From an uncultured Collinsella sp. (GTDB taxonomy: Bacteria > Actinomycetota > Coriobacteriia > Coriobacteriales > Coriobacteriaceae): DNA of 5,301 bases. The DNA is taken from positions 1-5,301 of the forward strand of contig CABUZE010000071.1 of NCBI GenBank assembly GCA_902495955.1, written 5' to 3'. Made by a program: the position numbers and the translations under genes. Below are positions 2,935 to 5,301 of this stretch, piece after piece. Numbering within the stretch: position 1 is the stretch's first letter; each line of letters opens with the position of its first letter. The notes beneath the pieces are model-generated. The model saw nothing but the letters and a program-made list of their open reading frames with translations, was not told where the DNA came from and ran no database searches.

Positions 2935-2942
2935 TGACCCCT

Positions 2943-2971
2943 GGGGGGACAGAATAAAACGGATCATTTTG
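2943..2971 (+). repeat. Possible fragment of a dispersed intergenic repeat
   Basis: Just after the kinase stop, a G run leads into GGACAGAATAAAACGGATC followed by ATTTTG. The stretch has an imperfect palindromic core, AAAACGGATCATTTT, with GATC at its centre. It resembles from memory the GGGACAG-type intergenic repeats seen in REP-like families, some of which accompany REP-associated transposases. Only one copy is in the window, so repeat status cannot be shown here. No convincing terminator for the kinase operon is visible at this spot. Confidence 0.25.
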
Positions 2972-3003
2972 CCTTGCGTCGCGCCGGCGTGGGCTGGTTC
3001 GAA

Positions 3004-3157
3004 CAAAACTATGCCGGTTTACGGGGCTGGAGTGCCGAACCTCGAGCATACCGAAATTCGCACTTTTAAAACCGCAGGTAGATGAGTCGTAGGTTTTTAA
3101 AAATGACAGGTATGGTTGCGAGGTGCTGATTCAGCGCCGTAATCCGGCATAGTTTTG
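3004..3157. repeat. 154-nt imperfect palindrome with 26-nt terminal inverted repeats (MITE-like or long hairpin)
   Basis: The left end 3004-3029 (begins CAAAACTATGCCGG) and the right end 3132-3157 (ends CCGGCATAGTTTTG) are inverted copies matching at 24 of 26 positions. The interior is also nested and palindromic. ACCTCG (3039-3044) pairs with CGAGGT (3119-3124), CATACC (3047-3052) with GGTATG (3109-3114), and TTTTAAAACC (3064-3073) with GGTTTTTAAAA (3092-3102, one bulge). The apical loop is about 18 nt. About 46 base pairs can form in total. No coding frame is supported inside. The ends carry AAAA and TTTT, so as RNA the hairpin could end transcription in both directions, including that of the kinase operon. 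No convincing target-site duplication is visible: the flanks read GAA on the left and AAA on the right. A miniature inverted-repeat element, a REP-like element or a structured RNA are all possible. Confidence 0.7.
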
Positions 3158-3221
3158 AAACGGGCTGTTCTTGCAAGGTCCGACGACAGTTCTTCCTATC
3201 GCAAACCATAGCTTTTACCTT

Positions 3222-3249
3222 GGGCTTCGCCTGTGTGCGGGGCCCTTTT
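3222..3249 (+). terminator. Small terminator-like hairpin upstream of the riboswitch promoter
   Basis: GGGCTTCGC (3222-3230) can pair with GCGGGGCCC (3237-3245) as 9 bp including two G-U pairs, closing a six-base loop. TTTT (3246-3249) follows. It could stop read-through from the kinase operon into the riboswitch leader. The tail is short, so strength is uncertain. Confidence 0.4.
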
Positions 3250-3276
3250 GCGTGCTACCATACTGACAGTAATAAT
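3248..3276 (+). promoter_or_regulatory. Candidate promoter of the riboswitch/surface-protein transcript
   Basis: TTGCGT (3248-3253) and AATAAT (3271-3276) are separated by 17 bp. The -10 matches TATAAT at 5 of 6 positions and the -35 matches at 3 of 6. Transcription would start near 3283, just before the first paired base of the riboswitch at 3286, which is the layout expected for a cis-acting leader. The untranslated leader would then be about 320 nt. Confidence 0.5.
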
Positions 3277-3285
3277 CGATGGCCT

Positions 3286-3458
3286 AGATGGTGGTGTGGA
3301 GACGCACGAATGCGCGGTTTTCCTGCGCGTTTGGGAGAATCGGGGTGCAAATCCCCGGCTGTACCAGTAACCGTAATTCCTCTTGGCCCGGGATGTTCGC
3401 ATCGCAGATCGGACGATGCGCCCGGGTCGGTAAGGTTAAGTCGGATCGCCTCCCATCT
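3286..3458 (+). ncRNA. Cobalamin (adenosylcobalamin-type) riboswitch aptamer
   Basis: The conserved core is seen directly. GGGAGAAT (3333-3340) precedes the hairpin CGGGGTGCAAATCCCCGG (3341-3358), then CTGTACCAGTAACCGTAA (3359-3376). These correspond to the family pattern of GGGAA, GGTG-AAA-TCC, and a C-rich stretch ending in ACTGT. The B12-box equivalent AAGTCGGATCGCCTCCC is at 3438-3454. The closing helix pairs AGATGG (3286-3291) with CCATCT (3453-3458), and GGT (3293-3295) can meet GCC (3448-3450). A peripheral arm forms from GCATCG (3399-3404) with CGATGC (3414-3419), extended by CCCGGG (3387-3392) with CCCGGG (3421-3426). The family binds cobalamin and normally lowers expression of B12 synthesis, transport or B12-independent isoenzyme genes. 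Here the first gene downstream is a secreted Ig-repeat protein. Confidence 0.92.
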
Positions 3459-3461
3459 TGC

Positions 3462-3493
3462 ACGCGGCCGCGGCGCATGCCGCCGGTACGCGT
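3462..3493 (+). promoter_or_regulatory. GC-rich hairpin in the riboswitch expression platform
   Basis: ACGCG (3462-3466) pairs with CGCGT (3489-3493). The inner stem GCGGC (3470-3474) pairs with GCCGC (3479-3483) around the loop GCAT, and GCC (3467-3469) can pair with GGT (3485-3487). It starts 3 nt after the aptamer closes. No U-run follows it or occurs later in the leader, so control is more likely translational than by termination. Confidence 0.5.
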
Positions 3494-3514
3494 TGGGCTC
3501 TGGAGGGAAGGGGG

Positions 3515-3548
3515 ACCCCGATGGGGGTACTCGAGCGCGATATGCGCG
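3515..3548 (+). promoter_or_regulatory. Two short hairpins in the distal leader
   Basis: ACCCC (3515-3519) can pair with GGGGT (3524-3528) around the loop GATG, which covers an in-frame ATG at 3521. GCGC (3535-3538) can pair with GCGC (3544-3547) around GATAT. Upstream, GGAGG (3502-3506) is complementary to CCTCC in the aptamer's 3' strand (3449-3453), so ligand-dependent exchange of pairing is possible. This is a reading of complementarity only, not a folded structure. Confidence 0.35.
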
Positions 3549-3592
3549 ATGACGTGGGGCAGCCGCTGGGCAATGCTCCAAGTTCAGACAAT

Positions 3593-3597
3593 AGGAG
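3593..3597 (+). promoter_or_regulatory. Ribosome-binding site of the surface-protein gene, with a possible sequestering partner
   Basis: AGGAG lies 4 nt before ATG 3602 and 10 nt before the in-frame ATG 3608, so either could be used. GGAG (3594-3597) is complementary to CTCC (3576-3579), so a small hairpin could hide the site, consistent with translational control by the riboswitch. This supports 3602 or 3608 over the far upstream in-frame ATGs at 3521 and 3542. Confidence 0.6.
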
Positions 3598-3601
3598 ACA
3601 A

Positions 3602-5301
3602 ATGGATATGTTTGAAGACGAGCGCCAGCGCGCCTCGTGGCGTCGTCATGGAGCGATTGCCCGCGGCGTAGCCAAGCGCGGTCTGGTTGCATTCTTGGCT
3701 TTTGCCATGGCTTTTGGCACCACGCCGGCGCAACTTTGGGCCGAGGGCGCCGAGGGCATTGCCGAGGCCGTGACCCAGGCTGCGACGGGCGGCGAGGGCG
3801 CGGCGGCAGACGATGGCGCTACTGCCGACACCGGCGCGAACAGTGCGGCGGCGAGCGCTGCTGCCGATGGCGCCAGCGCAGATCAGGGCGCAACTGCGAG
3901 TACCGCGAATGGTGCTGACACCGTCGCAGGCAACGCGACTGAGTCCGAGAGCTCTCCCGCGGCGCCTGCTACTTCGGAGCAGGAGAACGCCGTTGCCGCC
4001 GCTTCCGCCACGACGCTTTCGAGCGAGGCCAAGGTCTATATCCAGGACGCCAAGGATAAGGACAACTCGTATTCCACGAAGTCTGGTGCTCTCAGCGCGG
4101 GCGATACACTCTGGGCAAATATGTTCGATGAGGTCGAGGACGACTGGTACGGCACTTCGACTGAGTCCGTTGCCAATCCCGGCACCTGGACTTACACCTG
4201 GCTCGCCGGCACGACCAGGGCTAGCGGCAATGTCGCCGACTACACCGAGGTCGTAGGCCACGAGCAGTCGCTCACTGTCACCGCCGCGATGGAAGGCAAA
4301 TACTTCATCTGCAAGGTAACGGTTGATGGCAAGGACTACTATGGTCCCGCTGCGTACGGCTCGGGCATCAACGCTAATTACATCCCCGGTCCCGTGCTGG
4401 GCGCCGGTCAGATGGAGCTTAACAGCGTCAAGCTGAGTAGCGACACGCCGAGCATAGGCGATACCCTGACGGCGACTCCGTATGTAAGCTATTATCAGCA
4501 AGCTCCTGCCGATGCCAAGGTCACCTACACGTGGTCCGCATCCACCTCGCAGTACTCGGGATTTACCAAGATCGAGGGCGAGACGGGCGCTACGCTCGTG
4601 GTGGGCGACGACCTTGAGGGCAAGTACATCAGGGTCGAGGCCAACGCTGGCGTCAACACGGTGAACAAGACCACTTCCAGCAAGGTCAAACAGGCCGGTG
4701 CGGTCGAACTTTCGGCCGTGTCTATCGTTAACACCAAGGACAACACGAGCGTCTTTGCGGTGGGGGATACCGCTAAGGCCCGCGCCAAGGAGAAGGGCGG
4801 CGCGTACGGCGCGTTCGTCGACGCGAGCAAGCTCAACTATCAGTGGCAGAGCTCTAACACCAAGAGTGGCACGTATACCGACATTGCGGGTGCCACGGGG
4901 GAGACCCTCGAGCTAACCGACGCTTTGGGCGGCAAGTACCTCAAGTGCAAGGTGTCCTCGAAGATCGGCTCTTCGAGCTTGACCAACTCGACGGGCGCTC
5001 TCGTTGCTGCCGCCGGTTCAATTAATGTCACGAGCGTGACTATGAGCCCGACTTCGGGCAAAGTCGAGGTTGGTTCCACGATTACGGCGACCGCCAAGGC
5101 GGGTTCCACCGACGTTACCACCGATTCGCATGTCTCGTGGCAGTGGTATAAGGGCACCTCGAACTACGCGAGCTCGTGCAACACGCCTATCGAGGGTGAG
5201 ACTGGCAACACCCTGCCAGTGCCTGCCGCCCTCAAGGGCTACTACGTCGCGGCCAAGGCCAACGGCGGTTACAGTGAGCAGAGGCCTAACGGCTATTATG
5301 C
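3602..5301 (+). CDS. Secreted surface protein with tandem Ig-like repeats, B12-riboswitch controlled (3' end outside the window)
   Basis: The frame is open from ATG 3602 to the window edge, with 566 complete codons visible. A basic n-region (R14, R15, R21, K25, R26) precedes a hydrophobic core at 28-39 (LVAFLAFAMAFG). Cleavage is plausible after LWA at residue 47, so the product should be exported. Residues about 50-140 form a low-complexity linker rich in Ala, Gly, Asp, Thr and Ser. Four related domains of about 100-110 residues follow, starting near residues 144, 271, 368 and 473. Each has a core tryptophan (W200 in TYTW, W311 in TYTW, W415 in NYQW, W515 in SWQW). A G-K-Y-like motif sits 31-34 residues later (Y234, Y342, Y446, Y548), usually after G-x-T-L-x-V. 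This is the pattern of Ig-like/bacterial surface repeats in Gram-positive adhesins and enzyme scaffolds. Any ligand-binding, catalytic or cell-wall-anchor domain must lie downstream. The riboswitch suggests a role tied to corrinoid supply, which is inference. Confidence 0.88.
   Translation, partial: MDMFEDERQRASWRRHGAIARGVAKRGLVAFLAFAMAFGTTPAQLWAEGAEGIAEAVTQAATGGEGAAADDGATADTGANSAAASAAADGASADQGATASTANGADTVAGNATESESSPAAPATSEQENAVAAASATTLSSEAKVYIQDAKDKDNSYSTKSGALSAGDTLWANMFDEVEDDWYGTSTESVANPGTWTYTWLAGTTRASGNVADYTEVVGHEQSLTVTAAMEGKYFICKVTVDGKDYYGPAAYGSGINANYIPGPVLGAGQMELNSVKLSSDTPSIGDTLTATPYVSYYQQAPADAKVTYTWSASTSQYSGFTKIEGETGATLVVGDDLEGKYIRVEANAGVNTVNKTTSSKVKQAGAVELSAVSIVNTKDNTSVFAVGDTAKARAKEKGGAYGAFVDASKLNYQWQSSNTKSGTYTDIAGATGETLELTDALGGKYLKCKVSSKIGSSSLTNSTGALVAAAGSINVTSVTMSPTSGKVEVGSTITATAKAGSTDVTTDSHVSWQWYKGTSNYASSCNTPIEGETGNTLPVPAALKGYYVAAKANGGYSEQRPNGYY

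Follow-up and report, generated by a model that had tools for sequence, protein, structure and literature searches.

A likely B12-switched operon for predicted transcobalamin-like surface proteins in Collinsella points to probable corrinoid capture for a B12-type importer

The DNA analysed here is a stretch of 5,301 nucleotides (nt) from an uncultured Collinsella sp. (contig CABUZE010000071.1 of assembly GCA_902495955.1), to which we refer in its full length as the window. It ends inside the gene for a predicted exported surface protein, here called gene A (3602–5301, + strand), of which the N-terminal 566 amino acids (aa) are encoded before the open reading frame (ORF) runs off the window, and the leader of this gene carries an RNA element of the cobalamin riboswitch class. 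Both are discussed as parts of a candidate corrinoid capture system. Since gene A is cut by the window end, its remainder was studied through its relatives, using a pattern-based genome scan for this last gene that returned 14 loci, all from Collinsella.

The aptamer was placed at 3286–3455 on the + strand, with its outer bounds set by eye around an Rfam match to AdoCbl-II (RF01689) at 3334–3450 (+, 30.2 bits, E 4.1e-4), which is the sole row at E ≤ 1 in the cmscan of the window, one overlapping weaker match of the same clan being omitted. RF01689 detects an element that RF00174 alone had missed in the first six genomes. The P4 hairpin of the aptamer lies at 3341–3357 (+), with 3341–3345 paired with 3353–3357, and was followed in an alignment of 31 distinct cores from the class (Coriobacteriia). 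These cores came from 35 pattern matches, after dropping four 41-base versions that overlapped 40-base ones; one row coincided with the window, which was entered in its place with a shift of one base. The pattern prescribed the two inner P4 pairs and left the three covarying pairs free. Across the 31 cores three P4 pairs are changed on both sides, mainly from G-C to C-G, with 98.1% of the cells paired, and the covariation score is 0.283 against 0.087 in shuffles (none of 500 shuffles as high). The both-side-changed cells number 28, compared with 11.5 in shuffles, and shifting the P4 partner by 1–3 columns leaves at most three of them. Nineteen of the 31 cores lack pairing at the third P5 position. 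The window element has, in sum, a conserved core with a covarying P4 stem. It is followed by 3456–3601 (+), from the aptamer to the start codon, a probable expression platform that is conserved in 15 sequences.

The score by itself is weak. It stays below the RF01689 gathering score of 36.5, so that the match does not reach gathering-level membership in clan CL00101; six relative loci gave no gathering-level riboswitch match when scanned, and a site above the gathering cut-off was found in just four of the 43 Collinsella genomes. These low scores would suit a decayed riboswitch, with the surface gene expressed regardless of B12, a reading that we consider very improbable in view of the leader around the aptamer, whose mean identity is 95% among 15 Collinsella sequences including the window, of the compensatory changes in P4, and of the presence of a site in 40 of the 43 genomes, before DUF4430 genes in 39 of them. 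Leader conservation and P4 covariation, together with the sites above the cut-off elsewhere (10 of the 159 genomes of the class sample), strengthen the riboswitch call. The B12 riboswitch claimed by the initial annotation, which had named a missing Rfam cobalamin hit among the outcomes that would speak against it, therefore holds as regards the AdoCbl-II match, the covarying stem and the conserved leader, while the sub-gathering score amounts to a weak form of that outcome, the only one of those named to appear. Both the ligand form and the direction of control would be those suggested by the riboswitch class.

Gene A starts at an ATG at 3602, with AGGAG at 3593, and continues for 566 codons with no stop before the window end. 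The gene could also begin earlier, at an in-frame ATG at 3521; the interval 3521–3602 has no gaps in the 15 aligned leaders, and the lengths of database relatives differ by about 29 aa, consistent with differing start choice. Residues 27–41 form the most hydrophobic stretch of the first part and are followed by AQLWA, and a signal peptide is predicted at about residues 1–47 (3602–3742, +; cleavage site by eye), after which the translation reads as an Ala/Gly/Asp/Ser-rich linker (3743–4030, +). Self-comparison of the protein then delimits four repeats on the same strand: repeat 1, the weakest match to the others (residues 144–256; 4031–4369), repeat 2 (residues 270–364; 4409–4693), repeat 3 (residues 367–471; 4700–5014) and repeat 4, cut by the window end (residues 473–566; 5018–5299). 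Five of the six repeat pairs score above all 300 shuffles; for repeats 1 and 4, in contrast, 16 of the 300 shuffles reach the score of the pair. A Pfam search of the window's piece of gene A gave no matches at E ≤ 0.1, and DUF4430, the domain discussed below, is not in this piece. We label the repeats immunoglobulin-like (Ig-like) because the matching stretch in the relative L005 is similar to the ZirU family (58.8 bits, where the cut-off is 100) and because of our reading of the sequence. An exported protein with four Ig-like repeats had been read downstream of the riboswitch before, and the ORF at 3602, the hydrophobic run and the repeat comparison agree with it.

The part of gene A in the window is 82–92% identical to its relatives in loci L001–L005, and the closest full-length relative, among the 120 matches listed of 3457 found with the L005 protein as query, is 92.4% identical to it. 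All of these 120 proteins carry PF14478 (DUF4430) and the Listeria-Bacteroides repeat in precomputed Pfam assignments, are at least 97% identical to L005 over residues 60–570, and include a sole source-named protein, a "DUF4430 domain-containing protein". The same-locus gene A orthologs also carry DUF4430, so that the guess of this domain for the unseen C-terminus proved right for the relatives, which the cut-off part of the window protein presumably matches. In L005, gene A begins with a signal, an Ig-like stalk with an atrophied Ig domain and DUF4430. Next comes a beta-propeller, recognised by comparison with L006, and then the Listeria-Bacteroides repeat, a charged linker and, at the C-terminus, a hydrophobic segment with KRR. 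Gene A of L006 has no stalk and three DUF4430 domains. Against a cut-off of 23.8 bits, DUF4430 scores 31.1 in gene A of L005, 68.2 in gene B of the same locus and 99.7 in gene A of L006. Gene A is complete in 12 of the 14 loci (it runs off the contig in L002 and stops at 479 aa near the contig end in L010), and the Ig-like repeats look like a stalk of variable length, because the complete orthologs span 1140 to 2404 aa. In all 12 complete loci gene A is directly followed by gene B (cut by the contig end in one). The product of gene B, of about 300 aa, has a hydrophobic segment at its N-terminus, then a charged linker, and a single DUF4430 at its C-terminus. Sortase (LPXTG) anchoring, a signal that the initial annotation had proposed to look for, was dropped, as no such motif precedes the C-terminal hydrophobic stretch of the relatives, whose tails by eye end in KRR or KRGKGDGNAR. 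A different Collinsella surface protein, in L015, shows LAKTG. In L097 (3389–4048, reverse-complement coordinates; genome G023) a 219-aa predicted exported protein lies directly after the riboswitch and has a single DUF4430 and a C-terminal hydrophobic segment, a minimal version of the arrangement.

The DUF4430 domain of gene B from L006, about 100 aa encoded at 14033–14338 of that locus, was predicted with a pLDDT (predicted local distance difference test) of 97.7, and at E ≤ 0.001 Foldseek matched this model only to transcobalamin, haptocorrin, intrinsic factor and one R. gnavus protein; in both Foldseek and VIA-align the best matches are the cobalamin carriers and 3u7z. The model has the cobalamin-binding beta-domain fold. 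Searched against the PDB as a single sequence, gene B had no match, and DUF4430 required a profile, which placed a ThiS protein (0.084) above intrinsic factor (0.27) in the PDB, neither being significant. The domain alignment comprises 49 pieces out of 73 non-redundant ones, which represent 147 distinct pieces. Cobalamin binding has been seen for the beta domain of a human carrier (PMC5599065), and the DUF4430 label has been used for teleost transcobalamin-like sequences (PMC4350170), statements that, like those on other publications below, refer to the available part of each text. For the propeller, whose alignment comprises 19 of 36 pieces, BamB, YxaL and eight-bladed designs are the best matches of the model in Foldseek and VIA-align, and BtuG is absent from the best 50 matches of each list; a likeness of the propeller to BtuG had been expected and may exist, but on this ranking we do not claim it, and the propeller is probably eight-bladed. 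None of the scanned gene A and gene B proteins shows a barrel in Pfam. The presence of Ig-like, List_Bact (internalin-like) and propeller domains, and a stalk of varying length, could also mean that the surface protein is an adhesin or glycan binder, with DUF4430 as a structural beta-grasp spacer and B12 as a signal of the gut site. We regard this as improbable: L006 keeps three DUF4430 domains without a stalk, several relatives have a short DUF4430 protein and a transporter of the energy-coupling factor (ECF) type under the riboswitch without gene A, and the predicted DUF4430 fold matches the cobalamin carriers best by a wide margin.

DUF4430 was found in 42 of the 43 Collinsella genomes. At E ≤ 0.05, each of the 40 genomes with an RF01689 site has exactly one, and the 39 that stand upstream of a DUF4430 match do so on the same contig and strand, with the nearest match 331 to 5343 nt away; the remaining site is in G034, where the DUF4430 genes are on another contig. 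Conversely, 123 of the 131 Collinsella DUF4430 matches lie within 9 kb downstream of a site, and G039 is without DUF4430, riboswitch match and S component. Outside Collinsella the counts concern the matches listed, with the Collinsella rows left out and one list incomplete: the class sample holds 55 such DUF4430 genomes, 35 of them with a cobalamin riboswitch at most 9 kb upstream, and 38 of the 46 riboswitch sites of these 55 genomes sit upstream of DUF4430 within 9 kb. Tandem AdoCbl-II matches were seen before the same gene A operon in L148 (1047–1400, reverse-complement coordinates) and L154 (687–1036), from genomes G177 and G111. In L163, from genome G131, which has no DUF4430, genes for a Peripla_BP_2 lipoprotein and an ATP-binding cassette (ABC) ATPase follow a riboswitch of this kind, an apparent BtuFCD-like replacement of the DUF4430 system. 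As for the use of the vitamin, an ORF with a B12-binding domain is present in 38 of the 43 Collinsella genomes, mostly with 820–970 aa; judged by size and domain only, it is likely methionine synthase, and the users of the vitamin are probably few.

In five of the 43 Collinsella genomes (G020, G024, G033, G040 and G041) a short DUF4430 protein is encoded after the riboswitch, and behind it come genes for a membrane protein, a double ABC ATPase and an S component. Pfam was run on L092, L093 and L095 from this group, each of which has two ABC_tran stretches, so that EcfA is encoded with the S component; in G033 the contig ends inside the last gene, and the short DUF4430 protein of L092 and L095 shows a lipobox by eye. 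Twenty non-Collinsella loci, taken from 23 RF01689 sites with that of G172 left out, were examined likewise, and 15 have the S component downstream, eight of them in the order gene A with propeller, DUF4430 protein, ATPases and S component. In Collinsella the S component is present in 42 of the 43 genomes, mostly away from the riboswitch outside the five operon genomes, and the three contexts that were read have the same ATPase and membrane genes beside the distant S component. The initial annotation had proposed a search for btuFCD or ECF genes downstream; ECF-type genes do occur in the riboswitch operon of many relatives, with an S component akin to CbrT, while genomes of the window's clade have the transporter at another site. 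The conserved membrane protein between gene B and the ATPases carries a RARG motif, which we take to be typical of EcfT, and it is called a putative EcfT because the assignment comes from place and motif only and sequence searches gave no confirmation.

A single S-component sequence matches the general ECF S-component Pfam models near their cut-offs. A profile of 19 of 20 sequences (one with a long insertion left out), compared with all PDB sequences, matched 6fnp_A with an E-value of 1.8e-15, followed by 4hzu_S (predicted membrane protein, 0.0027) and 3p5n (riboflavin uptake protein, 0.0035). The structure 6FNP is ECF-CbrT from Lactobacillus delbrueckii, which transports cobalamin and cobinamide and was tested by complementing an E. 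coli strain without btuF, btuC and metE (PMC5997447). That CbrT carries cobinamide besides cobalamin, and that the R. gnavus DUF4430 protein of known structure bears the name "putative metal-binding protein", would be in line with a system that captures another tetrapyrrole or cobalt (incomplete corrinoids such as cobinamide, haem or a metal ion), with B12 repressing it as the end product. We give this little credence, since the predicted fold matches that of cobalamin carriers and the S component is far nearer to CbrT than to other S components; capture of cobinamide, for its part, would be a variant of corrinoid capture and not a different mechanism.

Our best explanation, with a probability of about 0.8, is that the window covers the beginning of an operon that is likely switched by B12 and whose predicted surface proteins likely catch corrinoids through transcobalamin-like domains and would deliver them to a B12-type ECF importer. 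The riboswitch before the gene, and the kinship of the relatives' DUF4430 to the human B12 carriers, suggest that these bacteria likely take B12 outside the cell, which supports the surface corrinoid capture proposed in the initial annotation. When B12 is scarce, the riboswitch would permit expression of genes A and B. The gene A protein would be exported and held by its C-terminal hydrophobic anchor, with the charged linker and the variable Ig-like stalk carrying one to four DUF4430 domains and the beta-propeller. The gene B protein would be anchored in the membrane (a lipoprotein by eye in some related operons), with its C-terminal DUF4430 near the membrane, so that a corrinoid bound by the DUF4430 domains could pass to gene B and on to the CbrT-like S component of the ECF transporter. 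The analysis itself shows the homology and covariation of the riboswitch, the order of the genes and their link with DUF4430, the kinship of the domains, the predicted folds and the likeness of the S component to CbrT; corrinoid binding, the direction of regulation, exposure at the surface and the handover are inferred from these.

Besides the low riboswitch scores, several points weigh against this interpretation. DUF4430, the propeller, gene B and the transporter all lie outside the window and are known from relatives only. G025 and G032 have DUF4430 with no riboswitch match, and 20 of the 55 non-Collinsella DUF4430 genomes are without a riboswitch at most 9 kb upstream, a count in which strict filters lose weak matches. 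Among the matches listed, 73 of the 119 merged non-Collinsella riboswitch sites belong to genomes that have no DUF4430. The element thus serves other genes too, and this count led us to discard the notion that every cobalamin riboswitch of the class controls DUF4430 genes. G021, G022, G023, G030 and G031 are without a B12-binding-domain match yet keep the riboswitch match, DUF4430 and the S component. DUF4430 also occurs in the control genomes of Lactococcus lactis and Methanosarcina acetivorans, and the domain alone is therefore no proof of B12 use. The propeller is closest to BamB and YxaL and not to a known B12 binder, and the putative EcfT has no convincing match in Pfam, NCBIfam or PDB sequences.

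The closest counterparts of DUF4430 by fold are the C-terminal beta domains of mammalian transcobalamin, haptocorrin and intrinsic factor, which share its predicted fold and a detectable sequence similarity. In these carriers the alpha domain is a barrel fold. The mammalian carriers have the beta and alpha domains in one soluble protein (PMC5599065), whereas here DUF4430 belongs to bacterial proteins predicted to be anchored at the surface, and in gene A a propeller lies next to it. In Bacteroidetes, BtuG, BtuH and BtuJ are surface lipoproteins of riboswitch-regulated B12 loci that catch B12 for the transporter (PMC6143338, PMC13398666); the proteins described here are likewise predicted surface proteins of loci with a B12-class riboswitch, and BtuG is also a propeller, but a seven-bladed one that partners the outer-membrane BtuB, in contrast to the ECF-type transporter and the BamB-like, probably eight-bladed propeller of Collinsella. 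With ECF-CbrT the system shares a homologous S component and the ABC ATPase genes beside it, and differs in that the double ATPase, putative EcfT and S component form their own gene set, in many genomes with DUF4430 surface proteins ahead. The available part of the account of CbrT (PMC5997447) mentions no DUF4430 surface proteins. According to a review, btuFCD occurs in many gut Gram-positives that do not have btuB, which suggests that their machinery is a variant one (PMC6977713). We found no description of the present system in the literature searched, which omits most subscription papers. B12 surface capture is already known for gut Bacteroidetes; the present reading would be a surface capture and import system in Gram-positives, to which Collinsella belongs.

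A second riboswitch site was detected by RF00174 in G005, G006 and G034 (46.8–48.2 bits), where it precedes a second large surface protein, as read in L194 and L196. In L194 (G005) the riboswitch lies at about 800–925 and an ORF at 1115–5614 encodes a 1.5-kaa surface protein, of which residues 1077–1355 are homologous to Firmicutes surface proteins with prenyltransferase-like repeats and DUF4430 (3.7e-74 for Paenibacillus). Pfam found FIVAR only on this protein, and a single-sequence PDB search with its prenyltransferase-like region found nothing. Such a barrel is the fold of the transcobalamin alpha half, and the homology suggests that the L194 region is possibly the alpha half of a split transcobalamin. 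The S-layer-type proteins of Firmicutes (Paenibacillus and others) carry both regions on one chain, whereas in Collinsella DUF4430 and the prenyltransferase-like region are on separate proteins, the latter in four of the 43 genomes; in G005, G006 and probably G034 the two transcobalamin-like halves may thus stand on different proteins behind separate B12 riboswitches. A more tentative extension, which we hold to be possible and on balance doubtful, is a relay along the stalk in Collinsella and related bacteria, in which the riboswitch-controlled multi-DUF4430 protein would bind B12 outside the cell wall and transfer it to the membrane-bound DUF4430 protein and then to the CbrT-type ECF transporter, and in which, in some species, barrel and beta halves on separate riboswitch-controlled surface proteins would close around the vitamin. 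If true, this would give gut bacteria access to the B12 of other microbes, or even to that on the carriers of the host.

Upstream of the leader, the ORF list and Pfam place the end of a C69 peptidase gene at 1–597 and an ABC1-family kinase-like gene at 1171–2934, with a small phasin-like gene between them at 746–1162 whose Pfam match is below the cut-off. The phasin-like and kinase-like genes precede the same leader in all four relative loci listed; the peptidase is listed in two of them, and the other two list an overlapping antisense ORF instead. A terminator-like hairpin at 3222–3245 (+), a weak match in a consensus scan that found one where 0.7 are expected by chance, may be the terminator of the upstream transcription unit. 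A simple scan of 2935–3700 found no sigma-70-like promoter.

The operon names concrete candidates in a common human gut genus, namely transcobalamin-like surface proteins that would be tied by one riboswitch to a CbrT-type importer. DUF4430 proteins, which in the few named database entries are named by their domain alone, would gain a function that can be tested, and bacterial relatives of the beta half of the mammalian B12 carriers are suggested to act in the same role.

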